The position numbers were made by a program, and so were the translations under genes. This document shows, piece by piece, positions 8,706-52,150 of a DNA stretch of 64,000 nucleotides (positions are counted from its first letter, which is position 1; each line of letters opens with the position of its first letter). Source of the DNA: Cladocopium goreaui (taxonomy: Eukaryota; Sar; Dinophyceae; Suessiales; Symbiodiniaceae); contig CAMXCT020000371.1 in NCBI GenBank assembly GCA_947184155.2, positions 36,001-100,000 on the forward strand, read 5' to 3'. The notes beneath the pieces were generated by a model. The model did not search any database. It worked only from the letters and a program-made list of their open reading frames with translations, and was not told the DNA's origin.

Positions 8706-8901
8706 TGACATCTCACATAACATTTGAGACATACTTGACTGATGCCTATGCATTCCTATCCGATGCTTTGGCTCCATGGGCATTAGGCCTTGAGTCTACT
8801 GAGCTGCGCAAGGACCCATAGAAAAAGCGCTTGCACTTGCGCTAGTGGATTTGTTCATTCCGTGCTTGGCATGGCGTTTCTTTAAACATCTCACCGTATC
8901 A
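8706..8901 (+). repeat. copia-1 5' LTR
   Basis: 196 bp, starts TGACATCTCAC and ends CACCGTATCA. Identical by eye to 27177-27372. It should hold the promoter and polyadenylation signal, but no dinoflagellate core promoter motif can be assigned. Confidence 0.95.
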
Positions 8902-8902
8902 G

Positions 8903-8915
8903 TGGTAGCGGAGCC
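8903..8915 (+). promoter_or_regulatory. copia-1 primer-binding site
   Basis: TGGTAGCGGAGCC lies 1 nt after the LTR. It resembles the initiator-Met tRNA primer site of plant copia elements (TGGTATCAGAGC). Copia-2 has the same string after its LTR. Confidence 0.8.
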
Positions 8916-8923
8916 TTGTTGCA

Positions 8924-11900
8924 ATGAGTGGACCTAGCAACTACAACCCTGTGGATGACCCTTGGGCTCGATACAACGAGCTACAAGGACGTGCTGGACC
9001 TAACCCTTCGAATGCTGGTGTTCAAGGTTTTGCAGATGCATCTACGAGGGCTGTACCTCAGTTTCAACCTATGCTACAGCATCCGAATGGATCACAGTCA
9101 CAGCATCAGATGTTTCATCCTGGTTTCTCAATGCCGATTACAGCAGCAACTGGCGGGACGGTTTACAGAACTGTAGGTCCTAGCCAGGCCAATCCTGGTT
9201 TTGGTGCTGCAGCCTTTTCTTCTGCCTTAGGCCAAGGGACAGGCCAAGCATCAACTTCGGGATCTATGAAGAGCTCGGCATTTGACTTACTGGGTAATGC
9301 AAGGCCACAAGGCCATATGCAGCAGCAAGGTTTTGACCCAATGAGCCCAAGTATGCCTTCAAACCCTGCGCACTCCAATCAGATTCTTTCCCAAGCTTTG
9401 CATCAAGCCATTACAGGTGAAAAGCGTTCCATACCAGTTTGGAATGGTCACCCGAGCACCCTTCGCTCGTGGTTGAAGTTGCTGGCTTTGTGGGAGCATG
9501 AATCTCAGATGCCGCTGGAACGTAGAGGAGTCAAATTGCTTCAGAGCTTTGCAGAAGGTTCTGAACCTCGGCGCATCGCTGACACTGTGCCGATGCAGAC
9601 CCTTTTGTCTCCTCAGGGTTACAGTGCAGTTTTGAGTGCAATATATGACAAGTACTTTCCATACCTTGAAGCTTCTGCGCCAAAGGCAATTGACAGGTTT
9701 CTGTTTGAAGGTGAACGACAGAAGTCTGAAAGTTTTACAGCTTTCATTGCCTCCAAGCAGTTGGCTAGACAGGAGATGGAAACTCAAATGGGAGAAACAA
9801 TTTCAGACAGACTGTGTGGTCGCATCCTTTTGAGACAAGCTGGTTTGAGTGATTTTCAACGGGAGATGCTCATGCTACGTGGACCAGTTCTTCGAACGTT
9901 TGACGAAGTTGCTTCAATGCTGCGAACATTGGATCGTCCGGAGATGCTTGCAAAAGCTCAAGGATCCAATGCAGCAACTTGTAACTTTGCAACTTTTGGA
10001 GATGATGCTGGCGAGGTTGAGGAGCACGAGCACCTTGAGAATGACGAGGACGATTCAACTGGCTCCTCATCACAGGATGAGGATGGAAACCCATTTGTCT
10101 ACTTTGAGGACAAGACTTACACTGAAAATGAGAGCATGGAAATCCTGGCGTACCATAGCGCCTACAGAGATGTGAGAAAGGAGATGCAGAAAAGAAGGAA
10201 TGAGCGTGGCTATGTGAAGCGCTCCAATGATTCTGGAAAAGGCCGTGGGAAACGCAGTCACAAAGTTTCCAAAGGTTTTGGCAAAGGGAAATCAAAGTTT
10301 TCCAAAGGTTCCAAGGTGTTGAAGTCCTACGGGGATGATTTGATGAGCCGCACGCGTTGTTTTAACTGTGATGAGCTTGGGCATATTTCCAAAGATTGCC
10401 CCTTCAAGCAAGACCCCAAACCTCGGTCTTCAACTGGGACCTCCTCACCAAGGAAACAGTTTTTGGTGACTGCCACGGGCCCTCAAGTTTTCATGCATTC
10501 TGTTGGCAGACCATCAGATGGAGCGGACAACCCAATTTACAGGTTGATGATTTTTCATACAGTGCAATGTCGTGGCCATGAGGCATTGGTTGACACAGCA
10601 GCCGAAGAGGGCGTCATAGGAGATGTTGCTTTTGCTGAGCTGGAGCGAGAGCTCAACCGTCGAGGCCTTCGACCAGTTTGGCAACCTCAGCAAGAACCTC
10701 TTCCAGGTGCTGGTGGAATTGGTGGTGCAGCAGTTGTGAAAGGCGTGGTGAACGTGCCTCTTGGTGTTGCTGGCACCAATGGCGTTTTGCCTTTCACAGT
10801 TCTTCAAGATGGACCCAATCATAGGACACCACCTTTGCTTCCAATTGCCTGGCTTGAAAGTGTTGGAGCCACCATTGACTGTCAAAATGATCAACTGATC
10901 CTTCAAGATGGTTCTGCAACCCCCATGAGAAAGCTGCCTACAAAACATAGAGCGGTGGACATCATGAATTTTTCTACAGATGGATGGGATCTACCCCGAA
11001 ACCTTCGAAGAGACCCAGATGTGGATCCATTTGTTTTGCCACCGCAGCCTCAGATGTTTGCAGCAGTTTTGCAGCAGCCGGACCAGAACAAGGTCTTGGT
11101 CTACCTCTTGGTGGATGACAAGATGAACCTCTTGATGGAGTTGCCGGTCCAGAACCGCATGGTGGTGCCATCAGACTGCCCTGGACTTCAAGATCCAGAA
11201 ACTTTGGAGCCGGAAAGATTGACCCATATCTTTTCGGAAGGGCGACACCGAGTCATCAGAGACTTTTGGAAAGATCGACATGCAAAGAGGGCCACACAGG
11301 CTCCTTGGTATGGTGCTGTTGTGTTTGCTTCGAAACAGCATTTGATAGCACCAGCCGATGACTCCAATGCTACGCCCATTCAGGCGGACAGATCATCGAG
11401 AATGGCCTTTCCTGGACATATGTCTCACGATGTTTCACAGGCACCAGCAGCCTCATCATCCAGTTCGAGCTCAAGATGGGCTGACAACGCTCGTCGTGAA
11501 TATGGCGGCAAAAGGAGCCTTTCTGGAGAACATCCTACATCATGTCCAGTGAGATCATCATCCAGTTTTTCATGCATGGAGCACACCATCAACATTTTTG
11601 ACTTTGCCATGTTTGCCCCCGATGTCCCTGATGCAGTGATCACCCCAACAGCTACTTTGACGTCTTCACCATGTGATTCTGCTCAGGTGGCAACTTCAGC
11701 GGCAGCCAGCGCACCACACGTGCAGGTGCCGTCAATAGCTGCTGGGTGGAATGGGCAAACTCAACATTTTGATTTGGCTCAGTTTGATGATGTTGTGATT
11801 GAGTTGCATGACAACTCCCCATGTCATGATTTGCGTTCAGATGATTTACAAATTTCAGAAGCATCAGACGTGCAGCAGAGTTTCAACAAACAAGATTTTG

Positions 11901-12090
11901 GATCGGCAGTGGCACCAATGTCTTTTTCGTTTGCACCCTTTTTGATGCGAGCGTTTGTTGAAACTTCCACAGCACAGCCTTTCTCCATGCTCAAGGGCAT
12001 CAAAGACGTTTTGTCAACCAAGTTGTGCTCACGAAGGGCATCGTCAAATGGCATCGCTGTGTCAGTCTGTTCGGAAGCAGATGCAGATGG
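8924..12090 (+). CDS. gag-pro: copia-1 gag-protease
   Basis: ATG 8924 follows the primer site. The N-terminal ~130 residues are Gln/Ser/Pro-rich. A helical gag core follows (about residues 170-340), then an acidic stretch and a Lys/Gly-rich basic stretch. A CCHC zinc knuckle, CFNCDELGHISKDC, starts at residue 479 and should bind RNA. An aspartic-protease domain follows with active-site VDTAAEEGVIG (Asp at residue 557) and a later PLGVAG segment. The frame stays formally open to 14860. However, from about 12060-12090 the protein-like sequence moves to the next frame (see 11955-12920), so I end the credible gag-pro here. The junction is a frameshift, programmed or mutational. Its product should form the particle and process the polyprotein. 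Confidence 0.85.
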
Positions 12091-12920
12091 AGGACCCCGA
12101 ACCGCAGCAGAAGCCCAAGCAGAACAAGCTTCTGGGATGGCGTCGGGTGGTCCTAGCGTTGCTGACTTTGATGGCAACCACGCGATCAGAGATGGTCATG
12201 GAGTACCTGATCAGCAAGCGTGGCACGATGGCCATCGAAGACATGGAGGAGAAAAAGAAGGACCTGACGGGCCGCAAAAAGAAGGATCCAGACTCAAAGA
12301 TCCGCCAAGCAATTGGCAAACCTCTCAACCGGTCCCAAGCCCAAAAGAAGTGGAATCGGGAGGTGAGCAGTTGTGCTCACGAGGAGGAGTATCTACGTCA
12401 CAGAGCTGGCAAAGGTCACTTTTGGTACACATGCCTTCAATGTGGAGGACGTTGGGAACGATTGGAAACAACCTCTTCAAGTTCAACACAGGTGGTTCAG
12501 ACCACGGAGTCCAACTACCCAACGTACCTACCACCGCCAAGAAGCAGACCAGATTTGCCAACCCAGAAGGTGACGGTGATCAACGAGGCCCAGTCCATGT
12601 CAGCAGGCGAACAGTTGCCTTTGACCAATCACCTGAAAGCCCGTGGCCGAACCTCAGACAGGCTGACTGGCCTGAACCCAATGCAGAGATCAAAGACTCC
12701 GGTGGTGACTCATGGAAGTTTGGAGGGTCGTGCCAGAGAGATGTTCGAGCTGGCCAGCGACTCAGAGAACCCGATTTACGAGGACGTTCCAATGGAGTTC
12801 ACCGAGGAGGAGATCGCACGGCTGAATGCCGAGGCCCGGGAAGAGATTTTCTTCGGTGTGATGGGCACCGAATACAACTTTGTGACAGCCTTGGAAAGAG
12901 AGCAGATCTTGGATCCATGA
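11955..12920 (+). CDS. copia-1 middle ORF with C/H/C/C zinc-type motif
   Basis: This frame is open for 966 nt while the flanking gag-pro frame is also open over the same DNA. The credible coding part starts near 12075 (QMEDPEPQQKPKQNK) and ends at TGA 12918-12920. It has a hydrophobic stretch (RVVLALLTLMAT), a Lys-rich stretch (KKKDLTGRKKKDPDSK) and a Cys-His pair followed by WYTCLQCGGRW, a likely zinc-binding unit that I associate with dinoflagellate copia polyproteins. The competing frame here reads as Gly/Arg-rich shadow sequence. The stop overlaps the next ATG (ATGA at 12917-12920), which could allow reinitiation. The role is unknown. Confidence 0.6.
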   Translation: MLKLPQHSLSPCSRASKTFCQPSCAHEGHRQMASLCQSVRKQMQMEDPEPQQKPKQNKLLGWRRVVLALLTLMATTRSEMVMEYLISKRGTMAIEDMEEKKKDLTGRKKKDPDSKIRQAIGKPLNRSQAQKKWNREVSSCAHEEEYLRHRAGKGHFWYTCLQCGGRWERLETTSSSSTQVVQTTESNYPTYLPPPRSRPDLPTQKVTVINEAQSMSAGEQLPLTNHLKARGRTSDRLTGLNPMQRSKTPVVTHGSLEGRAREMFELASDSENPIYEDVPMEFTEEEIARLNAEAREEIFFGVMGTEYNFVTALEREQILDP

Positions 12921-14650
12921 CGGATGAGAAGGTGAAGGACTTGCGGGTCAGTTCTAAGCTGATCCATGGCCATCAACTCCAAGATGGTGGCTTGAAACGC
13001 AGATTGGCGTCGACCTCAAAGATGGCAGCCATTTTGCTGATGACTTTTGTTTCCACGTGCGAAGCTTCGTGGAATATGCCTGGAATTCAGTCCTTTGTAC
13101 AATGCCCGTACTGGTCGGGCCAGCCCCAACATATGTTTCAAAGAACTTCCGAGAAGGAAGAATGGGAACCTTTTTCAGTGCAGACTCGGCCGAGATCCAA
13201 AGAACTCCACACCTGCATGGTCTTTCCACTCAACTCCAACAACTACAACCTTTTTGCCGAAGACTTGGAGTGGCAATGCAAGCCCCTATCATTGCCAAAG
13301 GGAGTGAAGATCTTTTTGCAGAAGTCGGTGAGCACCCATGTGGATGTGATGGAAATCTACAGCCCACCGAGAGTGACTTTGGAGGCCAAAAAGCAGAACC
13401 AAAAGGGTATCAAACCAAAGTGGCGGGTTGGTCAAGCCTTGGACCTCACCACAGGCTATGACTTCAAGAATGCCAAAACCCGCAAACATGTGATGAACCT
13501 GATCAAGACCTGGAAGCCTGCCTTGGTGATCCTCTCACCTCCATGCACCGTTTTCAGCCCCCTTCGGAATTTGTCTTCGCCGAAGCGGGATCCAGAAGTT
13601 GTCCAACTGGAGGAGGAGGAAGGTCTTGAACATTGGGAATTTGCTCTCGAGATTGCGGAGGAGCAGGATGACAACCAGAGGGGATTTCTTTTGGAGCATC
13701 CAAAGGAAGCATGGTCATGGAAGCATCCTCGTGCTCGCAAGCTGAAGGAGCGCAAAACCGTGTACGAGTTTGTGGTGGACCTTTGCGCCTTCAAGCTGGT
13801 CACAAGGGATGGCATTTTGGCCAAGAAGCCTACCATGCTCATCACCAATTGTTTTCCTCTGGTTCGCACCTTGCACAAGAGATGCCAAGGGGGTCATGTT
13901 CACAGATCCTTGATGGGTGGACGTGCTGCCGATGCTGCAAGATATACAAGGCCCTTTGTTCAGGCCATCCTTCGAGGCCTGCGGCATCACCTCCAGTACC
14001 ACGGTGTGATTTTTTGTCAACAAGTTGAGCAAGCAACCAGCCCAGACTTGCCAATGGAACTTTTTCATGCCGTGGAACAAGAGTTGAAGGTTTGGTCACA
14101 ACCGTTGGCCACCTACATCAATGAGGAGAGCAATTTTCAAGAAGATTTTCATTGTTTTTTGCAGGGCAAAGCTCAACTCAGCACTTTTCCATCCAGCAGA
14201 ATTTTGGGAGGCGGAAGTGCCCGTGTTCCAACTTTGCGTCGAAAACCCATGCCAACTTTGGAACATGAAGCAGATGAAGGTGATCCTGTGATGGAAAATG
14301 TGCAAAACAAGCTACGCCCTTTGGCAGAATCAGATGAAATTCAACAAGCTGCGGAAGATGCCATCGAGAAAGTCAGAAAAGATGGCAAACTCACCATACC
14401 TGCAAACCTTCGCAGGGAAGTTTTCAGACTGCATAGGAATTTGGGCCATCCAGATTTGTGGACATTCCTGCGAGCTCTACGACATGCTCAAGCCAAACCA
14501 GAAGTCATTGCTTGGGTTCGCAGTGAGTTCAAATGTCCCATCTGTGAGGCTCGACAACGACCTTCACTACCACGACCTGGACATTTGGTTCGAAACTTGG
14601 AGTTCAACAATGTGGTTGGGGTCGATGTCATTTTCTTTGATTGGAAGAAT
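12917..14650 (+). CDS. pol: copia-1 pol, part 1: methyltransferase-like domain, HHCC and integrase start
   Basis: ATG 12917 overlaps the previous stop. After a hydrophobic MAAILLMTF segment comes a ~200-residue domain at about 13400-13990. It has ALDLTTGYDF (motif-I-like), LVILSPPCTVFSPL (PPC at 13538-13546, possible catalytic Cys), FLLEHPKEA, KKPTMLITN and GGHVHRSLMGG. These match, in order, the YR-1 methyltransferase-like ORF at 19002 and recall C5-cytosine methyltransferase motifs I, IV (PPC) and VI. The integrase zinc region follows (LHRNLGHPDLWTF, then FKCPICEARQ), then the integrase core start with its first Asp (VVGVDVIFFDWKN, ending at 14650). There YR-1 is inserted. Past 14650 the frame runs through YR-1 terminal-repeat DNA to 14860, which is not part of the protein. 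Methylating activity is inferred, not shown. Confidence 0.75.
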
Positions 14651-15114
14651 GCATCATTGGGCTTGCCCAATGTGTCTATATGGAACACTGTGTTGGCCGG
14701 GTGGTGGTGGGGTACGTTGGTGGTTTGGTGGCTCTTGCCATTTTCCTGTCTTGGGATCACTCTTGGTGAGCATTGGATTGCGTGGATGTCAGTCTTGAAA
14801 CAATTCAACTTATTTTGGTTTGGCACAGCTGCACATTTTCTTGGAGAAGTTCATTTTTGATTTTACGTTGATCCAGAGTTGCGACAGCCTTCGCAGTTTG
14901 CAAGTTGTTTTCTGGTCTTGTGGGATTTCTTGTGCTTACAATTCAGATGCTGTGATTGAATCCTTTTGGAGTGCTTTCAGATTTCAGTTGATGTCTTGCT
15001 GATTTCGACACCTCAGTTTTATCCGTGCTGTCAATCAATTCAATGGGAATCATTTCAATGTTGTTGAATTTCGTGAAGTACTGGCTTGGAAAAGGGGTAG
15101 ATTTCATTTGAAGT
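14651..15114 (+). repeat. YR-1 repeat A1
   Basis: 464 bp, begins GCATCATTGGGC, ends TTTCATTTGAAGT. It matches 22859-23322 apart from one G/A difference (CTTCGCAG versus CTTCACAG). Start of the element. Confidence 0.93.
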
Positions 15115-15179
15115 AGCTGGGGCGCGTTGCCATCCAATAAGTGATTGGACGCCTTTTCTTTGTTTCAGGTTAGCATGCC

Positions 15180-17228
15180 ATGGGTGACACTTGGCCTCCA
15201 GTGGAAGATGGGATCAGAGCTCATTTACAGAGGGTTTACGTGACTCCCCTTAGACTGGATGCCGCTTTTGATACTGATGAGGAGTGTCTTGGTTTGCTCA
15301 CTGCAGAATTTCCCGATTTAATCGAGGAAGACCTTTTGGATGCAGTGGCACAGTTGTGCAATTGGAAGGAATCCATGGAGCGTCCTTTCAAGAGGAACAG
15401 AGTTGAAATGGCTCGGCAGGTTCTTTTCAGGCTCCCTTTTCCTGGCAGTACTTCGGTTCATGAGGAGTTCACACGTTTGACACAGACCAGTGCAATTTGT
15501 ATTCTGGAAATGCATACAAAATGGAAACAGAAGTTGTATAAGGAAGATCCACCAGACGCACGTGCAAAGAGGTTTGATGCAGAGAGGAAGAAATACTGCC
15601 GGTTGCTGGCTCAGATCATCATACAGGCGGGTTTGCCCATTGTGGAGTTGGTGAAGACCTTAGATGATCCACAGACTGGTTGGTTGCATGTCTTTGCAGC
15701 TCGGAGAGGCAACACGTTGAAAAATCGCTACAAAGTTTGGCGGCCTTTCGAGCAGTGGTTGGAGTGGCACAGGGGGTATCTTTACCCACGAGGTGTCAAG
15801 GACCTCATCGACTACATGCAGCACAGGGTGGATGACGGTTGCGGGAGATCGGTACCGCAAGCATTGCACACTGCATTGGCTCTGATTGAGCAGACTGGCA
15901 GGGTACCTGAGTGTGATCGCATCTCAGATGACCCTCTGTGGCGTGGGCATGTGAAGAGCTGGACTGCAGAGCTTTCTGAGGATGCCCCTCCACGGAAGCC
16001 GGCTGAGATGTACACCACGGCCATCCTTCTTGCCCTGGAACTGACAGTGGTGTGTGAGACGGAGCCTTTATTTGTCAGGGCACTTGCATGGGTGGTCCTT
16101 TGCATGGTTTGGGGGGCGATGCGTTGCGATGATGTGCAAACGGTGTTGCCCCACAGGTCCATGCTCTCCAACTTTGGGCTCAGGTTGGTGCTTGGGAAGT
16201 CGAAGACAACCGGGCCTGACAAGATACAGAAGGAGGTGTCAGTCCACATTTTCAGGACACTCTCACTCACAGGTGAGGATTGGCTTCGGACTGGATTTGA
16301 GTTGTGGTTGGCAGACCCTTTGAATTTCAGGCGTGACTACCTTGTCATGGAGCCCAACAAGAGCTGGACAGGAGTCAAGCGTCGCTTTCTCTCCCCTTCT
16401 GGTCTGAGTGCAGCCATTGGGAGACTTCTGGGGTCGTTGTGCTGTCCTCGGAGGTCCGGAGCCGGTTGGGAGCTCATGACAGCGATCCATCTCCTGCCGG
16501 ATGGACTTGAGGCCTTCTTCTCAGGCCACAGCCCGAGGAACTACTTGACCTCGGTGGCGGCAGCCTTGGGGTTTCACAAGGATGAGAGGGCCTACTTGGG
16601 CCGTTGGAGCATGGGAATGGTTTCCTCTGAAGAGTATGTCAGGACAGCTCGGCAGGTGGTGTTCAAGATCCAGCGCACCGTCAACAAGGCGCTGGTGGAA
16701 GGGTGCAACGAACCCTTTCATGAGGACGAGAACATTGACAAGCTTGCAGATTTTGCTGCAGAAGCTGGGGCCAACAGGAATCGCATCAAGAAGAGGCACA
16801 CTGTCCTCACGACCTGGCTGGGAAAGACATCGCTTGGCGGGACGTATCCCACTTTGGAGGTCTTGCCAGAAGACTGGGATCCTGATGTGCAGGAAGATGC
16901 CGAGGACGTCATGGCAGAGAAGGTTGCAGCGCAGGTCCTGAAGGAGTCCATGTCGAAGGCAACCGAGACAAAGTACTTTGTCACCGTCTCAAGGCGTGTG
17001 GGCCTGAGGCGACTCCACATGAGTGGCTGCTTCGTGAGGCCTGACCGCTGTTGCGAGGTGATCCATTTGAATGAAGTCAACCAGGATGACTTCGATGCCA
17101 TCTGCCAGGCCTGCAAGAAGAGAATGCTTGCAGAGAGCGGCAAAGAAGTCGCTGAACTTTCATCGGCGACAGCATCTTCCTCCTCCACAGCTTCTGTTGC
17201 CAGCGAGGCTGAAGTGCCTGTGGGCTGA
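15180..17228 (+). CDS. YR-1 tyrosine recombinase
   Basis: 682 codons from ATG 15180, shortly after A1. The catalytic tyrosine-recombinase signature lies in the second half: Arg in GAMRCDDV (residue 315), Lys in GKSKTTG, HSPRNYL (His 450, Arg 453), LGRW (the later His/Trp position) and the Tyr nucleophile in SEEYVRTAR (residue 486). The N-terminal ~290 residues are helical and should bind DNA. The C-terminal ~190 residues add a Cys/His cluster (LHMSGCFVRPDRCCEVIH, later CQACKK) that could bind zinc. This enzyme would insert a circular cDNA without duplicating target bases, which fits the clean junctions. It is encoded first in the element, not last as in DIRS1. The frame is intact. Confidence 0.88.
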   Translation: MGDTWPPVEDGIRAHLQRVYVTPLRLDAAFDTDEECLGLLTAEFPDLIEEDLLDAVAQLCNWKESMERPFKRNRVEMARQVLFRLPFPGSTSVHEEFTRLTQTSAICILEMHTKWKQKLYKEDPPDARAKRFDAERKKYCRLLAQIIIQAGLPIVELVKTLDDPQTGWLHVFAARRGNTLKNRYKVWRPFEQWLEWHRGYLYPRGVKDLIDYMQHRVDDGCGRSVPQALHTALALIEQTGRVPECDRISDDPLWRGHVKSWTAELSEDAPPRKPAEMYTTAILLALELTVVCETEPLFVRALAWVVLCMVWGAMRCDDVQTVLPHRSMLSNFGLRLVLGKSKTTGPDKIQKEVSVHIFRTLSLTGEDWLRTGFELWLADPLNFRRDYLVMEPNKSWTGVKRRFLSPSGLSAAIGRLLGSLCCPRRSGAGWELMTAIHLLPDGLEAFFSGHSPRNYLTSVAAALGFHKDERAYLGRWSMGMVSSEEYVRTARQVVFKIQRTVNKALVEGCNEPFHEDENIDKLADFAAEAGANRNRIKKRHTVLTTWLGKTSLGGTYPTLEVLPEDWDPDVQEDAEDVMAEKVAAQVLKESMSKATETKYFVTVSRRVGLRRLHMSGCFVRPDRCCEVIHLNEVNQDDFDAICQACKKRMLAESGKEVAELSSATASSSSTASVASEAEVPVG

Positions 17229-17676
17229 GCGATTTGAGTCGCTTCCTGTAAAAAGAGAAAGGGGGAAAGGGAAGTGTTTGTGCGGCACACATGTCATGTG
17301 AAATCAATGACTCCAGAAGAGGGTCAGATGCAGTCACATGCTTGTTCATTTCAGTGTTTTGTGCACTTCTCGTTGAGACGGTTGTGCAAAGCATCACAGA
17401 GAGTTCTGTCGTTGCTCAATGGCTCAGACCTGAGGGTGCCATTCAAACAACAGGACATTCATCACAGAGGATTCGGATTTGCATGTGTGTCTCTGTTTGT
17501 TTCTACTTGGTTTTGCCGTTCTTTTTGAATTGATTACTTGTTGCATAGGGTCGGCATTCACCTGTCAGGTCATTTGAGCTCAGTGCTTGAAATTCTTTGT
17601 CTGCAGTGTCAATTTTTGTTGCACTTGAACAGTTTGTAGGTGGACTTCATTTGCATTAGGGTTTGACCTTGCCGCG
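17229..17676. other. YR-1 intergenic spacer
   Basis: 448 bp between the YR and gag-like genes; no protein-like ORF. It probably carries the leader for the downstream genes. No motif was recognised. Confidence 0.5.
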
Positions 17677-19032
17677 ATGGACCCACTTGCTCAGAGGGAA
17701 TTTGTGCAGAACAATTTGGACTCAGATCTTCAGTTCATTTTGAGTGACTCTGGTGTCGCCCTTGTGCATCAGGTATCGATTGCCAGGCACTATGGATCGC
17801 TGAGGAAATTCTCAGCGCTTGGAGATGACAGAGCATCCATCAGGACGTCTTGCCTTCAGGACTTTGCGTTGCCAGCAGATTCACCAGAGAACAGATCACA
17901 GATTGCAGCGATTGTTTCAGCTTGGGAAACTTCCAAAGAATATTTAGCTAAAGAGATTGAGTTGAAGGCCGAGGCAAAAATCTTGGGACAGCCCAGGAAC
18001 CTTCAGATTCATGAACGTCAGGCCATGCTCAGAGCTGTAGAAGCGGTTCATGGTTCACTCAATGATGCAGAATGCCCTGCAGCTGATTACTTGAGTCTGA
18101 AGGCTGAGGAAACTGAGGCAAACGAACCGACAGCTGCACCGCTTGATGAGATTCTCAGCAAGCTTGCGTCCTCGAGCTCCTCAATCCAATCTACAGTTGA
18201 TGGCTCAGGTCACATCCGGATTACCCGGACCAAGACGAAGTCAAAGATGCCTTCAACAACTGAAGAATATAGAAAGATCTTGAAGGTCGAAATGTATTCC
18301 TGGTTGGCAATGGCTTCAAGGTACAAGGCGAAACATTGGCTTCACGGTCTTACAGCTGACCCTTTTCTCAGGTTTGTGGAATATATCTTGGGAGATAGGG
18401 TGTTTGGAATACAAATCCCTACTGGAGAAGGGAACCAACAGAAGGTGAAGCCCGATTGGGCGATTGTGCTGGCGTACGAACAGAAGCTCCGTAAGGAGGC
18501 TATGAAACGTGTTTTGGAGGGCCACACGTTGGCAGAGGCAATGGTTTCGGTGACGAAGGACGCCGATTTGAAGGAGGCCTATTTTACCACTCCTGTTGCA
18601 TTGAAATCTGCAGTTTCAGATGGTCATGGCCACCCCAACAAGTTTCAGCGTTTCAATTCCAAAGGAGGTTTTGGGGGCAAGTCCTCACCTGGTTTTTCGA
18701 AAGGAAAAGGCAAAGGGAAACAGAAGTCAAAATCCATGGGCCCTTCTGACCCTCGTCTTAAAGGACTGACTTTGGCTTGGAGGACACCGGATGGAAGAGA
18801 ACTTTGCTTTGCCTGGAACACAGGAGAGTGCGATGGTTCATGTGGCAGGATTCACCAGTGTGAGGGTCTTTGCTTTGCCTGGAACACAGGAGAGTGCGAT
18901 GTTCATGTGGCAGGATTCACCAGTGTAGGGTCAAAGGTTGTTACTCTGACCACAAGGCGGTGGAGCACAAGCAAAAACAAGGCGCTTGACAATCCACAGG
19001 TGTGGCACAACCCAGCGTGTCCACACCGTTGA
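17677..19032 (+). CDS. gag: YR-1 gag-like protein with CCCH zinc finger
   Basis: ATG 17677 opens a mostly helical protein (about residues 1-310) followed by a Lys/Gly/Ser-rich RNA-binding stretch (FSKGKGKGKQKSKSMG) and a CCCH finger, CFAWNTGECDGSCGRIH, near 18805-18855. The finger DNA is duplicated in tandem (66-bp period). In the second copy one G is missing (GATGTTC for GATGGTTC), so the annotated tail to 19032 is out of frame. Restoring the base gives HQCRVKGCYSDHK and a TGA at 18987-18989, in the same frame as the next ORF. The original layout was therefore probably gag, an in-frame TGA, then the methyltransferase-like region. Expected role: particle or RNA binding. Confidence 0.7.
   Translation: MDPLAQREFVQNNLDSDLQFILSDSGVALVHQVSIARHYGSLRKFSALGDDRASIRTSCLQDFALPADSPENRSQIAAIVSAWETSKEYLAKEIELKAEAKILGQPRNLQIHERQAMLRAVEAVHGSLNDAECPAADYLSLKAEETEANEPTAAPLDEILSKLASSSSSIQSTVDGSGHIRITRTKTKSKMPSTTEEYRKILKVEMYSWLAMASRYKAKHWLHGLTADPFLRFVEYILGDRVFGIQIPTGEGNQQKVKPDWAIVLAYEQKLRKEAMKRVLEGHTLAEAMVSVTKDADLKEAYFTTPVALKSAVSDGHGHPNKFQRFNSKGGFGGKSSPGFSKGKGKGKQKSKSMGPSDPRLKGLTLAWRTPDGRELCFAWNTGECDGSCGRIHQCEGLCFAWNTGECDVHVAGFTSVGSKVVTLTTRRWSTSKNKALDNPQVWHNPACPHR
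18802..18926 (+). repeat. tandem duplication of the CCCH zinc-finger coding segment
   Basis: Copy 1 18802-18861 and copy 2 18868-18926 share CTTTGCTTTGCCTGGAACAC through TTCACCAGTGT. Copy 2 lacks one G, which breaks the frame of the second finger. Confidence 0.88.
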
Positions 19033-20774
19033 CATCACCCGAGGTTCAACCTTCTGCTGAAATTCCTGTGGTTAAGGTTCTTTACCTATTTGCTGGGCGG
19101 AGACGCCATTCGGATGTTGGGGCCTTTCTCAAGCAGGCTGAATCCAATGGTAAGATCAAGTTAATTCTGAAGGAATTTGACATTGAACGTTCTCCGATGC
19201 ATGATCTCACAGATGTTTCATTGTGGAGCGAGATTTTTGATACCCTAAACGAGGGTGGATGGTGCGTTATAGTCTCACCTCCTTGCAATACATTTTCACG
19301 TGCCAGGTTCCAACATATTTTGCACCCAGGTCCAAAACCACTGCGGACAAGAGCATGGCCCAAAGGTTTTCCATGGCTGTCAAATGCAAACAAAGAGCTA
19401 GTGGCCGAAGCAAATTTCTTCGTTGAAAAATGTCTTGAGGCATGTGAGTGTGCAGCTGGTTCAGATGGTTTCTTCATTTTGGAACACCCAGAGGACTTGG
19501 GTACTGTGCAGGGCGAGCAGCCAGGATCGATCTGGCAGTGGCAGGAGGTGTTGGACCTCATTCCCAAATTTTCTGCGATATGTTTTGCAATTCATCAATG
19601 TCATTTCGGTGCATTAACACCAAAACCCACAAGACTGTTGACAAACATGGCAGTTTCTGATGCTCGTTGTTTTTGCGCTTTGCCGAAGTTCGACAAGCTT
19701 GGTTTTTACAAGGGACCTTTGCCCAGGAAGTGCGGGCACAGGCACAAACATAGGTTGATTGGAAAGACTGGTTCAAAATGGAACACCAGTCCCAGTGCAG
19801 CATACCCAGCAGGCATGTGCGAGTTCATTGCTCATATGATTCTCAATGCATTTGCATCCTACGGAGGGGGCGGTGAGAATCAAAAGAGCACTCCTGACCA
19901 ACACGCTGACAGGTTATCTTGCAAGAGGCCATTACAGACACCTTCAGCGAACACAACGGGGAAGAGGCAACGTGTGGGTGAGTCACCTACTGGTTCAGCT
20001 TCAACTTCAACTTCAATTGCAGCAAATGAAAAATTTTCTGTACTGCAGAGATGTTTGGGTGAGTCACCTTCGGGTTCTGCAGGGTCAAGTGCAAACCCCC
20101 CTCTTAAAGGGGACAACTCGGTTACACTGGCTGTTGGGCATTTGGGTGAGTCACCTGCTGGTTCAACTACAGTGGAAGATGCTTCAACTGACGCAATTAC
20201 GGCCGGGAAAAATGTGGCAGAGCAGCCGAACATTGACTCCCTTGTTGAAAGCTCAGAGGACTCCTTTGATGTTCATTCATGTTGCAATTCTGGCATGCCC
20301 ATTCAAGTTGAATGGGATCAAGTGAACAGGGGTTTCATTGATGGCTTTGGGCTTTGTAGCCCTACGAGATGGCGGCCTTCCCAGAGGGGCGAAAGGCGCA
20401 CACCAGAGATGCTGGATTTGGCAAATGCTACTTTCAATATTTTATCAGAATGCGTGGATGCTTGCATTTCCGACGTCAGGAAGGAATCATTCAGGCTGGT
20501 CACCGGGAAGATTGAGAAGTCTCCTTTTGGTGGTGAGGCATTAGCAGCCCTGCGGTCAAAGTTTGCTGCATTACTTCCGGATCCCCGTGATGCGTTGGTT
20601 ATTGATGATGGTCAGCCTTTCATGTTACGGGCTCTTTCCCAATGGTTGAAAAAGTTCAATGATCCTGACGCCAAATGGCTTGTGGATGAGGAGGAGTCCT
20701 TCTCAACTGGCGTATGCTTGGGGGTGGACAAAACCGTTGCCGCGGTCACCACAGGTCTTCCCCGAGAAGACTAA
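19002..20774 (+). CDS. YR-1 methyltransferase-like protein
   Basis: 590 codons. The nominal first codon is GTG, and no ATG precedes motif I, so expression as a gag extension is likely. Motifs: VLYLFAGRRRHSDV (motif-I-like, from 19075), an acidic FDIERSPMHDL, VIVSPPCNTFSRARF (PPC at 19278-19286, Cys residue 95), FILEHPEDLG, PKPTRLLTNM, CGHRHKHRLIGK and AAYPAGM. PPC followed by FS, with an upstream FAG motif, recalls C5-cytosine methyltransferases; DIRS1-type elements instead carry a Dam-like adenine enzyme. A Ser/Gly-rich linker with three GESPTGSA-like repeats (about 19975-20165) leads to a helical C-terminal part (DPRDALVIDD). That part runs into the RT region and ends at TAA 20772-20774. 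The C-terminus probably belongs with RT as one polyprotein joined by a frameshift. Confidence 0.72.
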   Translation: MAQPSVSTPLTSPEVQPSAEIPVVKVLYLFAGRRRHSDVGAFLKQAESNGKIKLILKEFDIERSPMHDLTDVSLWSEIFDTLNEGGWCVIVSPPCNTFSRARFQHILHPGPKPLRTRAWPKGFPWLSNANKELVAEANFFVEKCLEACECAAGSDGFFILEHPEDLGTVQGEQPGSIWQWQEVLDLIPKFSAICFAIHQCHFGALTPKPTRLLTNMAVSDARCFCALPKFDKLGFYKGPLPRKCGHRHKHRLIGKTGSKWNTSPSAAYPAGMCEFIAHMILNAFASYGGGGENQKSTPDQHADRLSCKRPLQTPSANTTGKRQRVGESPTGSASTSTSIAANEKFSVLQRCLGESPSGSAGSSANPPLKGDNSVTLAVGHLGESPAGSTTVEDASTDAITAGKNVAEQPNIDSLVESSEDSFDVHSCCNSGMPIQVEWDQVNRGFIDGFGLCSPTRWRPSQRGERRTPEMLDLANATFNILSECVDACISDVRKESFRLVTGKIEKSPFGGEALAALRSKFAALLPDPRDALVIDDGQPFMLRALSQWLKKFNDPDAKWLVDEEESFSTGVCLGVDKTVAAVTTGLPRED

Positions 20775-22422
20775 ACATAGGAAATTGGATGAGTCGGAGT
20801 TTTCGCCGGTGGCAGACAACTATCCATCAGCACAACTATCTTCAGGGGAATTGGAAAAGAAGTTCCGTGAGGAGGAGCAGCTTGGAAGGATGTTCCCTTC
20901 GAAGATTGGGGTGCTGAAGCAGGAGTTCAAGGACAGGTTGAGGATAGCTTCGATGGCTGCTATCAGCAAACCTGATGGATCAGTCAGGCCTCTTCATGAT
21001 GGTACACACTCAGTGAAGGTCAACCACGAGATCAGGTATCAGGACAAGATTCTGTGCCCTGGGCCACCTGAGATTGCAGCTATGGTTCGTGAAGCTTCGG
21101 AGTCAGGTGAAGCATGCTTCTGCGTCAGTGCAGATATCAAGGCGGCTCACAGGTTAGTTAAGATTCGCCGTTCTGACTGGGGCTACATGTGTTGCCGTGC
21201 GGATTCTTCTTCAGACGTGGTTTGGGTGAATCAGGTTGGAACATTTGGAATTTCCAGTGCACCATATTGGTGGGCGAAGCTTGCTGCATTGATTGGAAGA
21301 TTTGTCGGGTACTTGTTCCATAACAGGTGGTTGATGCAAATGATTTACGTTGATGATTTGCATGGGACGTTTGTTGGCCAGGGGAAGTTCAAGGCCCTAT
21401 GGATTTGGGTGCTGGCGTATGAATTGGTTGGCACACCATTTGGGTATCATAAGTTCAAGGGTGGATTTTCTTCGGAGTTTGTCGGCTTCTGCATGCGTTA
21501 TGACATTGCGGAGGTGGGCATCTCTTCAAAGAGAGGTGACTGGCTGGTTGCTTGGATCAGCAAACTGGCAGAACAAAAGTTTGTGGTGGCTTCAAGAGAT
21601 TTTGTGGAGTTCCTTGGGCGGCTGAGCTTTGTTGCACAACTCCTCACCTGGCTGAAACCTCATTTGGCTCCATTGTTTGCATGGTCATCAGTGATTGCCA
21701 GGAGCACAGTGGGCAGACTCCCTGAAACAATTATTGTGACGTTGAGGTACATACTTTTGGAGCTGCGGGCAGAGACATTCATGGTTTCCACAAGGCGACC
21801 CATTAAACATGTGGGGGATCAATTTAGGACAGACGCAAAATGCAGTGACGGGTTGGTCATTCTTGCTGGCTGGGAGCTCAAGACCCGGAGATGGTTCTCG
21901 TTGCGTGTTTATCCAGGAGATGCCCCATACCTTTTCAAACGCAGTGGTGAGTCCCAGTGGGCATCCACCTCTGCGGAGTTGATGGCTACGATGTTGGCTC
22001 TGGCAGCATTTGACTGGTTGCGTGAGAGCAAACACCGGAAGTCTCTTCAAGTGGCCTTCCATGCTGGCACAGACAATCGTGCAAATGAGGCTTTGACTTT
22101 GAAAAGGGCAACAACTAAATGGCCGTTGATGGCCCTGAACATGCAGATGTCGTCCATGTTGTCCAAAGCTCGTCTTGGCCTGAATCTCCAATGGAGGCCG
22201 AGAGAAGAGAACACTGAAGCAGATGATTTGACGAACGAGCGGTTCGATGACTTCGACCCGAAGTTGAGAGTTGAAGTCTCTCTACAGAGCATGGATCTTT
22301 CCATTTTGCAGGCACTGGTTTTGGTACATGATGAGTTTGAAGTTGCAAAGCAATCAGCGAAGGTCGAGCGCGAGCGTGACCCGGCCTCCAAGAGTAAGAA
22401 GTTTGATAAGTCCCCTTGGTGA
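20659..22422 (+). CDS. YR-1 reverse transcriptase/RNase H
   Basis: Overlaps the previous ORF by 116 nt in another frame. The credible start of homology is about 20765 (PEKTKHRKLDESEF), so a -1/+1 shift near 20760-20775 probably joins the two. RT motifs: VRPLHDGTHSVKVNHEI, FCVSADIKAAHRLVKI (catalytic Asp), VGTFGISSAPYWWAKL and MIYVDDLHGTF (YVDD at residues 230-233). RNase H follows: QFRTDAKCS, STSAELMATMLAL, HAGTDNRANE and WRPREENTEADDL, giving the D-E-D-D set. The protein ends at TGA 22420-22422, 44 bp before B1. It looks catalytically complete. Role: copying the element RNA into cDNA. Confidence 0.88.
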   Translation: MILTPNGLWMRRSPSQLAYAWGWTKPLPRSPQVFPEKTKHRKLDESEFSPVADNYPSAQLSSGELEKKFREEEQLGRMFPSKIGVLKQEFKDRLRIASMAAISKPDGSVRPLHDGTHSVKVNHEIRYQDKILCPGPPEIAAMVREASESGEACFCVSADIKAAHRLVKIRRSDWGYMCCRADSSSDVVWVNQVGTFGISSAPYWWAKLAALIGRFVGYLFHNRWLMQMIYVDDLHGTFVGQGKFKALWIWVLAYELVGTPFGYHKFKGGFSSEFVGFCMRYDIAEVGISSKRGDWLVAWISKLAEQKFVVASRDFVEFLGRLSFVAQLLTWLKPHLAPLFAWSSVIARSTVGRLPETIIVTLRYILLELRAETFMVSTRRPIKHVGDQFRTDAKCSDGLVILAGWELKTRRWFSLRVYPGDAPYLFKRSGESQWASTSAELMATMLALAAFDWLRESKHRKSLQVAFHAGTDNRANEALTLKRATTKWPLMALNMQMSSMLSKARLGLNLQWRPREENTEADDLTNERFDDFDPKLRVEVSLQSMDLSILQALVLVHDEFEVAKQSAKVERERDPASKSKKFDKSPW

Positions 22423-22466
22423 CCACATTCTTGTGACACCTTCCTTTCTTGACATCTTCTGAAGAG

Positions 22467-22858
22467 GGGGCTTTGAGATGTCTGCGAGTTACGTTGTTAC
22501 AAAACCTTTCAGGGATAGTGGAACTGGTTGGATGGTCTCTGTAGACCTTTGGCACCTTCGATACCTGCAGAGCAGGCAACAGAATTCACAGCCTTAACGA
22601 AGGTGTTCAAACGACCGCTCAATGGCGCAAGACGCAACCACCTTGGCAAAAGGGAGTGAAGCTGATTTGAATCCGTCAGATGTTCATTTTGTGCTGCATT
22701 GATTTCAGTTTTTCCATACATGTCAGTTTGCTGCCACCACTTGTGATTTGCAGTTTTGATTTTTCAACATTTGGCGTTTCCTCACGAATGACGCGTTTGC
22801 GAAGCTGGCAAAATTTCTGGAGACCTCACACACTCATCCAACACAGTGTAAAATGTAG
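22467..22858 (+). repeat. YR-1 repeat B1
   Basis: 392 bp, begins GGGGCTTTGAGATG, ends AAAATGTAG. Identical by eye to 23360-23751. Abuts A2 directly. Confidence 0.93.
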
Positions 22859-23322
22859 GCATCATTGGGCTTGCCCAATGTGTCTATATGGAACACTGTG
22901 TTGGCCGGGTGGTGGTGGGGTACGTTGGTGGTTTGGTGGCTCTTGCCATTTTCCTGTCTTGGGATCACTCTTGGTGAGCATTGGATTGCGTGGATGTCAG
23001 TCTTGAAACAATTCAACTTATTTTGGTTTGGCACAGCTGCACATTTTCTTGGAGAAGTTCATTTTTGATTTTACGTTGATCCAGAGTTGCGACAGCCTTC
23101 ACAGTTTGCAAGTTGTTTTCTGGTCTTGTGGGATTTCTTGTGCTTACAATTCAGATGCTGTGATTGAATCCTTTTGGAGTGCTTTCAGATTTCAGTTGAT
23201 GTCTTGCTGATTTCGACACCTCAGTTTTATCCGTGCTGTCAATCAATTCAATGGGAATCATTTCAATGTTGTTGAATTTCGTGAAGTACTGGCTTGGAAA
23301 AGGGGTAGATTTCATTTGAAGT
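22859..23322 (+). repeat. YR-1 repeat A2
   Basis: 464-bp copy of A1. The B1/A2 joint (TGTAG|GCATC) reproduces the end-to-start joint expected in a circular form. Confidence 0.93.
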
Positions 23323-23359
23323 CCCAACCCCCCCACCGCATTTTCTGCTTGCGCACAGC
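23323..23359. other. YR-1 A2-B2 spacer
   Basis: A 37-bp C-rich spacer with a run of seven C separates A2 from B2. In the textbook layout these two repeats abut. Confidence 0.7.
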
Positions 23360-23751
23360 GGGGCTTTGAGATGTCTGCGAGTTACGTTGTTACAAAACCT
23401 TTCAGGGATAGTGGAACTGGTTGGATGGTCTCTGTAGACCTTTGGCACCTTCGATACCTGCAGAGCAGGCAACAGAATTCACAGCCTTAACGAAGGTGTT
23501 CAAACGACCGCTCAATGGCGCAAGACGCAACCACCTTGGCAAAAGGGAGTGAAGCTGATTTGAATCCGTCAGATGTTCATTTTGTGCTGCATTGATTTCA
23601 GTTTTTCCATACATGTCAGTTTGCTGCCACCACTTGTGATTTGCAGTTTTGATTTTTCAACATTTGGCGTTTCCTCACGAATGACGCGTTTGCGAAGCTG
23701 GCAAAATTTCTGGAGACCTCACACACTCATCCAACACAGTGTAAAATGTAG
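23360..23751 (+). repeat. YR-1 repeat B2
   Basis: 392-bp copy of B1 and the right end of the element. The next base, 23752, resumes copia-1 integrase (CAG AAA TTT). Confidence 0.93.
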
Positions 23752-26700
23752 CAGAAATTTCCTATGTTGAACGTTTTGTGCTGGGGAACTGGACTCCAAA
23801 TTGTGGAGAGGCTGGAGGAAGTCAATGCGGAAGCCACACATCAAGCATTGCTTCGCTGCTGGCTTACACCTTTTGGAATCCCTATGGTTTTGATTGTAGA
23901 TCAGGGTCGAGAATTTTTTGGAGAAGAATTTTCGCAACGGCTGATGGAACAAGGCATCATGGTGCACTTCACTGACACCCACTCACCATGGCAGAACTCT
24001 CGAACTGAGAAAGCTGGTGGATTGTTTAAGGAGAAGTTGCACTTGGTTTTGGAAGAGACATCAGCTATGACCAAGCATGACCTTGACCTCTGCATCAGAG
24101 AAACCCAGATAGCACGAAACCGTTTTTTCCACCGTTCGGGCTTCTCACCATACCAACGAGCTTTTGGAGTGAACCCTCGACTTCCAGCAAGTCTTGTTTC
24201 GGATGATTTGATGAATCCAACTTTGCTGCAGGCCTCAGCTTCATCAGACATGCAGAAGAGCTGGGAGATACGTGATGCTGCAGCTACTGCTTGGGTTCGA
24301 CAACAAGATGTTGATGCAGTGAGACGGTCTGTAAAGGCCATGACCCGAAAGGCTGACATGAAGCAGCTGTCGGTGGGGGATTGGGCATTTGTTTGGAGAA
24401 GCATCCCTGGTTTTTCAGGGTGGTCTGGTCCTGGAGTGGTACTGGCGATTTCACCGACAGAGCGGTCACTTTGGATTTCTCTACGTGGCCATTTGCTGAA
24501 AGCCTCTCGTGAACATCTACGACCAGCCACTTCGGAAGAACACCTTGGAGCTGAGTTGATCCGGGAGTTGTCGTCTGAAATGTTGAAGGACATCAAGGAC
24601 GGCAAGGTGAGGCATTTTCATGACTTGACTGCCGAGCCAACCCCTGACCAAGATCAACAGCTAGAGATCACCACGGAAGCCATTCCCGATCAACAGAGGT
24701 TGGTCGATGGAGCTCATCCAAGCGCTCTACCTGCAATCCCAGAACATGACCAACTACGAGATGACACCATGGATGAACCCGATGACATCAGCATGGCTCC
24801 AACAACACCAATTGCAACACCAGATGGGGAGGATGCCATTGTCATCGATGAGATCGATGCAGATCTTGGAGATGCCAGCACGGCAGAGCCATCACGCCAG
24901 GTGTCACAACTTGAACCAGTAGAAGATAGCTTGCCAACTCAGAGCCGGAGATCTTCAATCATGGTTGATGAAGGAGCTGGCGGAGTCTTGAGATCCAGAC
25001 GGGTCTCCAGGGCTGACTCAGCACGAGTCGCACCCTATCCTTATCCTTTTTCAAGACCACCTTCCACACCATCTTCAACAGCACCACAAGAAACTGCAGA
25101 GGACACTACAAGTACCTCTCTGTATTCAGAAGTTGTTGATTTTGAAGGCCTACGGTCCCGACACACCAATTGGACCAAGGGCAAAGATGGAGCGATTTGG
25201 TGGAGTGACAAGCGAACTGGCCAAGGCGGCTTATCGCCAATTTCCAATGAGCAGTTCACTGTGGATGAGGCAGAGGGCTCCTACAGCTATGCAGACCAGT
25301 GCATTTACCTGACCAAGGTGAAGACCTCTCCTGGCCAAGTTGAGTTTCGGCACCTCAAGCCGGAACATCGAGCTGTTTTTGAAAAAGCACGAAAGAAGGA
25401 AGTTCAATCCTTGCTGGACAACAAAGCCATCAAGATTTTGTCTGTGGAGGAGAGCCGTGAATTCCGACGTCAACATCCAGACCATGTTTTAGCCTCAAGA
25501 TATGTTGACCGTTGGAAACCAAATGGAGACAAGTTTTCCGTGCTACCAGAAGCCTTTGATGCACCGGACTATGAGCCGATGAATGATGATGGAGTTTCGG
25601 CGAAGTCTCGCTGGTGTGTTGTGGGCTGGATGGATCCAATGGTCCATAGCATTGAACGAAGTGCTCCAACTCCACTGACCACAAGCCTTTACATGTTCTT
25701 TCAGCTTTCTGCAACACGACGTTGGAAGGGAAAGGTCAAAGACGCAAAGACTGCATTTCTCCAATCACTTCCAACAACAAGAAAGCAGAAACTATGCTGC
25801 ACTCAGCCTCCAGATGGGTGTTTTCCTGAGTGCGATCCAGAACAGCTGATCATGCTTCTTACAGAAGTATATGGACTTGTAAGTGGGCCATCATGGTGGC
25901 GAAAGTCTTTCCTGAAGATCCTCACGCAACAACTTGCCTATCGGATTTGCCCCTTTGACAGATGTGTCCTCACACTCGACAGCGAAAGCCGTGCCGAGGG
26001 AGCTGAGACACAGGGCATTCTGGTCATTGAAATTGATGATGTTCTTGAAGCCGGAGGTGAAGAACATGCCAAGCGAATGCAATGGTTGGAAGATCGCCTA
26101 CGGTTTGGAAAGGCAGTTGTTTTACAAGATGAACCTTCAGGGACAGCCTATGCCGGTCGAAGAATCCAGCAGATGGCTGACTTTTCCTATGTCTACAGCA
26201 TGGATGACTATGTGCAAGGAAGATTGAAACCAGTGTCTCTGGAAAGGAAAATCCTGATCAAGGACGCCAAAAAGACGCCTTTGAACCCCTCTGAGGAGTC
26301 TCAACTGCGAGGCACCATAGCCAGCCTGAATTGGTCCTCGAGGGAAGGCCGACCAGATGCTGCAGCAGCCGCATCAATCCTTGCAGGATGTTTTCCTGGG
26401 CCAACTGTGATGGACGCGATTGAGACCAACAAGGTGGTGCAGCGCGTCAAGAGCCACTCGGTCAAGCTCAAGATCCACAGCATACCTGAATCCGAGATCC
26501 GACACTTTGTCATCTCAGATGCTGCCTTCGATCCATCGGGTCGCACCAAGCCGCAGCATGGTTGGATTCAAGGAATGACAAACAGAGATTTGAGCCGTGG
26601 CCTTGAAGCTCCGGTGTCCCTTATTTCCTGGAGATCTCGGCGCCTACGCCGAAAGGCTGGAAGCACAATGTTGTGCGAATCAATCTCCCTATCAACCGCT

Positions 26701-27198: not shown

Positions 27199-27372
27199 GA
27201 CATACTTGACTGATGCCTATGCATTCCTATCCGATGCTTTGGCTCCATGGGCATTAGGCCTTGAGTCTACTGAGCTGCGCAAGGACCCATAGAAAAAGCG
27301 CTTGCACTTGCGCTAGTGGATTTGTTCATTCCGTGCTTGGCATGGCGTTTCTTTAAACATCTCACCGTATCA
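27177..27372 (+). repeat. copia-1 3' LTR
   Basis: 196 bp, same ends and sequence as the 5' LTR. The polyprotein stop is its codon at 27196-27198. The purine tract before it is weak (CAGGGGC). Confidence 0.95.
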
Positions 27373-27376
27373 GTTG
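27373..27376. repeat. copia-1 target-site duplication, right
   Basis: GTTG directly after the 3' LTR, matching 8702-8705. Confidence 0.7.
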
Positions 27377-36832: not shown

Positions 36833-37003
36833 TGCAAAGAATTGTGCGGCCTACTCATAGCAAGGATGACACACACAAATCGAGATGTAACAGTTGTGTC
36901 ACTTTCATGTACCTGTCATGGAAACTCATGATTCAGGTTTCATTTCATCGAGGCCCTTTTCGGCACAAAAGCGAGTGCATGCGTTTCTCAGTGAACTTTC
37001 GCA
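36833..37003 (+). repeat. copia-2 5' LTR
   Basis: 171 bp, starts TGCAAAGAATTGTGCGG, ends GAACTTTCGCA. It differs from the 3' LTR at two seen positions. Confidence 0.95.
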
Positions 37004-37017
37004 TGGTAGCGGAGCCC
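37004..37017 (+). promoter_or_regulatory. copia-2 primer-binding site
   Basis: TGGTAGCGGAGCCC abuts the LTR and matches the copia-1 primer site; an initiator-Met-like tRNA primer is likely. Confidence 0.82.
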
Positions 37018-37251
37018 AGTTTGGGCATACGCTTTTTCTTTTGGCTGGTGGCGCTTTGAGATCAGCTGGCAACTGGAGTGAGATTCAAATACAGCTTTGC
37101 AATACTGAATTCTGGGATTTATACTGGAGGCGAAAGCCTAAAACAGGTTTCTGGATTACAGGTGCATTTTGGTGAATCTCTTTTCCTAAGAAGTTGCTTG
37201 GAAGGAAGTGATAACGGTGTAGTAGGACTTGAAGTTTTTCTGCAAAAAGGC

Positions 37252-38343: not shown

Positions 38344-38477
38344 TGTTAGATTCTTTTGACAGTTTCATGTCGTACATGTATCCATGTTCACTCAGACATC
38401 CATTTGTCTGCAATGTATCTACAGGGGCTCAACCCACGATGTAAAAGGACTTGCTTGTGCACTCCGCCTGCTTAACA
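38344..38477 (+). repeat. copia-3 5' LTR
   Basis: 134 bp, very short for copia. Differs from the 3' LTR at two seen positions (TTTCATG/TTCCATG; CAGGGG/CAGTGG). Confidence 0.95.
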
Positions 38478-40655: not shown

Positions 40656-40676
40656 TACAATGATCAAAACAGCCCT

Positions 40677-46238: not shown

Positions 46239-46298
46239 CCTTCTTTGACAGTGGACATGAAACAATTCCAATTGTCGGCATCAAAATCGTTGCTGACT

Positions 46299-46321
46299 CA
46301 CCCCGATTTTGAGGTGGGGTG
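46299..46321 (+). promoter_or_regulatory. copia-3 polypurine tract in a hairpin
   Basis: CACCCC (46299-46304) pairs with GGGGTG (46316-46321), the last two bases of which start the 3' LTR. GAGGTGGGG is the purine primer tract. The layout parallels that of copia-2. Confidence 0.65.
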
Positions 46322-46453: not shown

Positions 46454-46458
46454 ATTTT
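46454..46458. repeat. copia-3 target-site duplication, right
   Basis: ATTTT, identical to 38339-38343. Confidence 0.9.
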
Positions 46459-52070: not shown

Positions 52071-52150
52071 GAGAATTTGGAAATGGAGGCCGGTGCACAT
52101 TCAAAGAAAGAGTTTGGATGAATGCGCTGGTTGTCCAAAATGACGAGAAA

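Follow-up and report, generated by a model that had tools for sequence, protein, structure and literature searches.

Why should two retrotransposons of different orders, one lying inside the other, carry the same ordered set of protein motifs? The question arises from a window of 64,000 nucleotides of the dinoflagellate Cladocopium goreaui (contig CAMXCT020000371.1, C371:36001-100000; genome of 1.17 Gb in 6202 contigs), in which a Copia long terminal repeat (LTR) retrotransposon is interrupted by a DIRS-like tyrosine recombinase (YR) retroelement (Table 1). The best explanation, to which we assign a probability of about 0.62, is that both domains are divergent enzymes of the C5-cytosine methyltransferase (C5-MTase) fold with a common ancestry, distantly akin to phage family PHROG 757, and that many Copia elements, as well as one YR family, carry them as lasting polyprotein parts, with a proposed role in self-marking.

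The initial annotation described the ordered motif set in the Copia frame and in an open reading frame (ORF) of the YR element, and every motif that it named lies in frame where it was placed. In the copia domain, VMEIYSPP (13346-13369) precedes SPPCTVFS, LLEHPKE and KKPTMLITN (Table 1), followed by GGHVHRSL (13889-13912) and RYTRPF (13940-13957). The YR ORF contains VVKVLYLFAG (19068-19097), SPPCNTFS (19275-19298), ILEHPED (19476-19496), PKPTRLLTN (19620-19646), CGHRHKHRLIG (19731-19763) and AAYPAGM (19797-19817). The (C/G)GH-x-H...L-x-G block is present in both, as claimed, but not with the same spacing, the YR block being one residue longer. The copia domain begins about 45 bases upstream of the start first given and takes in a motif-I-like strand.

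Homology of the two domains, proposed earlier as an accessory domain shared by two orders with different integration enzymes, is established by BLASTP and by profiles. BLASTP aligns them at E 6e-8 with 29 % identity over 135 columns. Profiles of 38 (YR) and 22 (copia) sequences, comprising the window's own and others selected among 198 and 28 homologues, respectively, at E <=0.001, match each other at 99.3 % (E 2.2e-20), and at 99.5 % after trimming (E 1.3e-22, score 152.8). Reversal lowers the score to 13.8, and none of 20 column shuffles exceeds 23.8. When the copia domain was shuffled 200,000 times, PPC..FS, E[HQ]P and KPT never occurred in order, even at loose spacing.

The predicted structures have the Rossmann-type fold of the C5-MTase superfamily. 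For each of the two models, all of the 50 VIA structural rows listed are C5-MTase entries, and DNMT1, DNMT3, M.HhaI and ZMET2 are in the top structural lists of both. Each shared motif falls on the corresponding secondary-structure element in both models, as judged by element order and not by superposition, so the equivalence of position on which the initial annotation depended holds in this sense. PPC, the presumed Pro-Cys nucleophile of motif IV, directly follows a strand in both models; 51 of 54 copia records from the genome retain it, as do 36 of the 38 rows in the YR family. Motif VI of C5-MTases is the Glu of ENV; this Glu is kept as E[HQN]P in all 54 copia records and all 38 YR rows. 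The domains thus resemble canonical C5-MTases (M.HhaI, DNMT1/3A/3B, DIM2 and ZMET2) in predicted fold and in catalytic-type Cys and Glu at strand ends. The predicted fold, the conserved Cys and Glu, and the links to phage MTases make a methyltransferase role the best reading of the domain.

Several findings weigh against it. PPC is missing from three of the 54 copia and two of the 38 YR rows, and KPT is kept in only 37 of the 54 copia records. Motif I of C5-MTases is FxGxG, the S-adenosylmethionine loop; the copia domain has SPPR and the YR domain FAGRRR (window ORF, P0001) at this position. The loop of the genome's copia copies is mostly E[VIL][YF]SPPR (13352-13372 in the window), with the usual glycine loop replaced. 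Neither domain has a clear target-recognition domain, the region from the KPT strand to the last helix spanning only about 35 (copia) or 55 (YR) residues in the models. Neither window sequence alone matches Pfam, PHROG or NCBIfam, and Foldseek against the PDB with the YR model gives nothing at E <=0.001, the best match being DIM2 at 5.4e-3. The window's other two Copia frames give no MTase-like hidden Markov model (HMM) match. Not every Copia element has the domain: of the best 150 (of 7362) RVT_2 places, only two (C6126 and C6084) lie in one frame with a copy that was listed. The main grounds for caution are the changed motif-I loop of copia and the short C-terminal part; the changed loop, together with the lack of a clear target-recognition domain, makes cofactor use only putative. 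Some metagenomic copia-type relatives keep YGRGG at the motif-I loop.

The window sequences do not reach the PF00145 gathering score and give no match at E <=1; among family members, two of 22 copia (best E 9.3e-4) and two of 38 YR sequences (best 0.15) match. Identity of the domains as Dnmt3 is rejected for want of a PF00145 match. A search of NCBIfam with four proteins gave no match, PDB searches with single sequences gave nothing meaningful, and the PDB profile matches, to DNMT2/tRNA C38 methyltransferases, are weak and not significant (E 0.09-0.22). The domains differ from canonical C5-MTases in the missing PF00145 match of the window sequences, in the motif-I loop of the genome's copia copies, in having KPT for motif VIII, and in lacking a clear target-recognition domain.

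The outside relatives reached are all phage-type methyltransferases, host DNMT profiles lying outside the profiles compared, and no host source gene for the domain was found. At E <=1, phrog_757 matches 17 of 22 copia-family members (best 7e-5), one of 38 YR-family members (0.17) and neither window sequence. At the same threshold, phrog_116, 363 and 2882 match fewer copia-type members (best 1.6e-5), and phrog_2882 matches nine of the 38 YR-family members (best 0.0037). A scan for KPT[DN]xWTN reached at least 120 viral loci, in every one of which the motif is part of an open frame, and 76 of which have a PPC motif; ENP was not seen in viral fragments L065 and L089. All of 19 non-redundant viral proteins match phrog_757 at E <=0.001, and PF00145 matches 17 of them at E <=1 (best 2.9e-13). 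By profile, this phage set matches the two retroelement families at 96.8 % and 96.7 %, and the copia–YR score is about 153 versus about 72 for either against the phage set. The PHROG 757 enzymes have parallel motifs (SPPCTxFS, ENP, KPTDIWTN and a Cys/His segment) within about 210-230 residues. They differ in having ENP where the retroelements have E[H/Q]P and KPTDIWTN where these have KPTxLxTN, and in being encoded by a separate short gene rather than as a polyprotein domain. Scans of viral sequences and genome contigs with the family alignments yielded 13, 12, 47 and 58 pattern-match stretches, none of them confirmed, and tblastn of P0131 in phage records gave no match.

The initial annotation expected a single clade containing both element types, and the tree does not show it. 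A careful tree built from 103 rows puts YR (29 rows, support 99/96), copia (55 rows, 99/98) and phage (100/100) each in one group. This tree dropped rows of fewer than 150 residues, near-copies and some loci and short proteins, and has phage rows as its only outsiders. The separate deep clades of YR and copia argue against recent exchange; the domain may have passed in the distant past from one order to the other, or each may have acquired it independently. Seven Copia rows with the domain on the reverse transcriptase (RT) side form one group (100/99) inside copia. The trees disagree on the integrase-side copia rows, which require five changes in the careful tree and form one group (SH-aLRT 90) in a quick tree, so that one shift of place may suffice. 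The quick tree has more metagenomic copia rows, 12 YR and eight phage rows; of its 130 protein rows, 15 received their RT-side label from a pattern and 115 carry no such label.

Judged from nucleotide substitutions, purifying selection on the domain is strong in both families. Between the window Copia and its copy on contig C180, the nonsynonymous rate (dN) is 0.004 and the synonymous rate (dS) 0.139. YR copies have a median dN/dS of 0.071 (maximum 0.113; 37 of 190 pairs with dS 0.1-2). For L026, with an early stop, comparison with two near-copies (dS about 0.02) gives dN/dS of 0.62 and 0.85; other finite non-zero copia values range from 0.03 to 0.25, with dS saturated in many pairs.

The genome has at least 145 copia-type places (the best 145 of 4472 candidates) and at least 141 YR-type rows (140 scored, the best of 3413 candidates), few of either with an internal stop. 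PF00145 places number at least 125 (123 scored, the best of 2685); all these counts, like that of RVT_2, are lower bounds and allow no comparison among them. Linkage to the elements is established on both sides. In the Copia context, read from the downstream sequence of 54 records at 53 places (the 30 best and 24 chosen matches, not a random sample; L155 and L008 are one place), the next feature is the integrase in 43 records at 42 places and RT in seven, and four are cut short. These neighbours define two Copia arrangements, Gag–protease–MTase–integrase–RT (L155) and integrase–MTase–RT (L156 and L158). A wider search found 500 relatives at E <=1e-5; among the matches listed, 10 of 120 have a precomputed RVT_2, and RT lies downstream of the MTase-like part in all four RVT_2-bearing relatives scanned. 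On the YR side, where 88 of the 141 domain rows were entered, the domain follows the YR ORF at a distance of 1.7-2.7 kb downstream and in the same orientation in 56 of 67 YR-ORF rows (55 distinct places), and no domain on the opposite strand lies within 3 kb of any of the 67.

If the domains are active C5-MTases, the elements may chemically mark their own DNA. The enzyme would be made and packaged together with RT; the SPPC Cys and the E[H/Q]P Glu would serve to methylate cytosine, either in the cDNA of the element itself or in its new insertion; and the methylated copy, resembling host DNA, might be hidden from defences or have its harm softened. Self-methylation and defence evasion, suggested earlier, would be roles of this kind. 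Catalysis might instead have been lost, leaving a module that binds nucleic acid or chromatin and so directs integration or packaging, as the altered copia motif-I loop (mostly SPPR) and the position of the domain before the integrase in 42 of 53 Copia places would allow. This is unlikely, since almost every copy retains the putative catalytic Cys and Glu, and purifying selection is strong in the two families alike. The domain is moreover found with YR as well as Copia, and in some places next to RT rather than integrase. Somewhat less likely still is a DNMT2-like enzyme that methylates RNA, such as the element's genomic RNA or a tRNA primer, instead of DNA. The weak profile matches to DNMT2/tRNA C38 methyltransferases and the small size of a domain without an obvious DNA target-recognition domain point that way, but these matches are not significant and DNMT1, DNMT3, M.HhaI and ZMET2 head the structural lists. 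YR elements are not known to be tRNA-primed, so a tRNA-primer role would not be transferable to them.

A phage-type family modifying pyrimidines at C5 may also have entered two retrotransposon orders anciently and later taken a second place in Copia Pol, the SPPR loop then reflecting a mark other than 5-methylcytosine or another cofactor. Dinoflagellate DNA contains 5-hydroxymethyluracil, and hosts with such unusual DNA are the proposed setting of this mark; the idea is quite doubtful. Convergence or chance between unrelated domains, to which an overall identity of only about 25-29 % might point, is highly improbable: the shuffle and reversal controls rule it out as a source of the motifs, predicted fold and motif placement are the same, and the YR HMM cross-matches the copia domain at E 0.0023. 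Hardly credible is a recent horizontal swap between the YR element and the Copia at this locus, although they are physically nested. The tree rejects it, the two sequences being only 29 % identical and belonging to separate deep clades, each with numerous relatives, and the domain is present in Copia copies without a YR element.

Methyltransferases of the C5-MTase type are already known from retrotransposons. In Symbiodinium, LINE and DIRS-like elements carry PF00145-type DNMTs, and two SymbioDIRS-Dnmt3 domains catalyze de novo CG methylation in yeast, according to the available text of de Mendoza et al. (2018; PMC5890265), which also states that the LTR Copia superfamily of Symbiodinium is without any DNMT domain. 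A 2025 paper, in its available portion, places DNMT3 members in 'LTR Copia and DIRS' elements, citing de Mendoza et al. (PMC12344493). The available portions of PMC6338049, PMC9998398 and PMC11453091 do not mention a domain like the present one, and no report of it was found in the open-licence literature; one may exist outside that literature. SymbioDIRS-Dnmt3, as described in the text available (PMC5890265), resembles the YR element in its A-coding-B-A-B split repeats, in a tyrosine recombinase in a separate ORF, and in a cytosine-MTase-fold domain in Pol with RT. YR relatives of the window element likewise have MTase and RT in one frame, and the window copy has them in overlapping frames. 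The SymbioDIRS domains, however, are detected by PF00145 and cluster with eukaryotic Dnmt3, whereas the window domain has no PF00145 match; among the matches listed, none of the 125 PF00145 places coincides with a copia or YR domain place. SymbioLINE-Dnmt and KnitGypsy-Dnmt3, in the same partial source (PMC5890265), are also retrotransposons encoding a cytosine methyltransferase, but belong to other element orders and have Pfam-detectable DNMT domains. The DIRS elements with a Dam-like N6-adenine methyltransferase (PMC5890265, PMC6338049; available portions) are YR retroelements with a methyltransferase in the coding region, whereas the window models match C5-MTases. Known retrotransposon DNMTs in LINE, DIRS-like and Gypsy elements are captures of Pfam-detectable DNMTs. 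What is new is a second MTase-fold lineage, missed by the usual libraries and present at 145 plus 141 places or more, Copia elements among them. Phage methyltransferases are the best matches of this lineage in the libraries. An active enzyme could contribute to the methylation of such genomes, and different retroelement orders would then be keeping related DNA-modifying enzymes.

Table 1. Features of the Copia element and of the YR element nested in it (window positions)
Feature	Position	Strand	Evidence
Copia LTR retrotransposon, about 9.6 kb minus nested element	8706..27374	+	LTRs; zinc knuckle above Pfam cut-off
Copia open frame, Gag–protease–MTase-like–integrase (N part)	8909..14860	+	ORF; zf-CCHC aa 484-498
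Copia C5-MTase-like domain	13334..13996	+	
SPPCTVFS, presumed catalytic Cys, motif IV equivalent	13535..13558	+	motif search, structure model
LLEHPKE, presumed catalytic Glu, motif VI equivalent	13688..13708	+	motif search, structure model
KKPTMLITN block	13823..13849	+	motif search, structure model
YR (DIRS-like) retroelement, 9101 bp, inside Copia integrase frame	14651..23751	+	repeats, uninterrupted Copia copy
Terminal repeat A1, 464 bp	14651..15114	+	99.8 % identity to A2
YR ORF, 684 aa, HSPR...Y tyrosine-recombinase-like signature	15174..17228	+	ORF, signature
gag-like ORF, C terminus Cys/His-rich	17629..19032	+	ORF list, by eye
Pol N-part ORF with MTase-like domain	18990..20774	+	ORF
YR-element C5-MTase-like domain	19062..19865	+	
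RT/RNase H-like ORF, YVDDL	20650..22422	+	ORF; motif by eye; 74 % match in relative L199
Repeat B1, 392 bp	22467..22858	+	100 % identity to B2
Repeat A2	22859..23322	+	repeat comparison
Repeat B2	23360..23751	+	repeat comparison
Remaining Copia integrase, RT, RNase H	23752..27198	+	rve E 1.7e-4, RVT_2 E 0.0035, both below Pfam cut-off

The outer element is bounded by LTRs of 198 bp (8706-8903 and 27177-27374) with 100 % identity, and no target-site duplication was seen by eye in its flanks. Its assignment to Ty1/copia follows from the LTRs in the window and from the order Gag–protease–integrase–RT–RNase H in relative L155, where Gag, protease, MTase, integrase and RT occupy a single frame of 3127 aa. 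RVT_2 is above the Pfam cut-off in relative L156 (57.3 bits) and below it in the window Copia and L155. The C180 copy (L002), with flanks about 98 % identical, is contiguous exactly at window 14650/23752, which indicates that the YR element, with its split repeats A1-coding-B1-A2-B2, was inserted without target-site duplication. From the near-perfect identity of the LTRs and of the A and B repeats, both insertions look recent.

A Pfam scan gave no match above cut-off for the YR ORF and none for the gag-like or RT/RNase H-like ORF. The MTase and RT frames of the window copy differ and overlap at 20650-20774, which may reflect either damage or programmed frameshifting; many YR relatives have a single Pol frame of about 1,050-1,160 aa, and the YVDDL of RT is visible in 13 of 20 loci. 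A tandem duplication of about 66 bp (97 %) lies at 18802-18932, in the Cys/His-rich end of the gag-like ORF. At 19975-20171, three diverged 29-nt repeats encode a GESP-type linker, of a recurrent kind, that joins the MTase-like domain to RT. L200 contains the YR Pol twice in tandem, in diverged form, with a 329-bp repeat pair between them, and this stretch has no match to the window YR ORF.

The spliced-leader pattern was not found in the 64-kb window; three EukProt-sourced hits agree with a dinoflagellate origin. Two more Copia-like units, apparently nested, have outer repeats at 36833-37003 and 52172-52342 (98.8 %) and inner repeats at 38344-38477 and 46320-46453 (98.5 %); by eye, the Copia-like frames at 36833-52342 extend beyond RNase H into a hydrophobic, membrane-like segment. 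AT skew is -0.445 at 30001-32000, with a very strong excess of T over A on the + strand. A diverged repeat array, mostly 65-70 % alike, occupies 34934-36378, and an inverted self-complementary stretch at 56238-56344 has a core of about 91 % over 66 bp.

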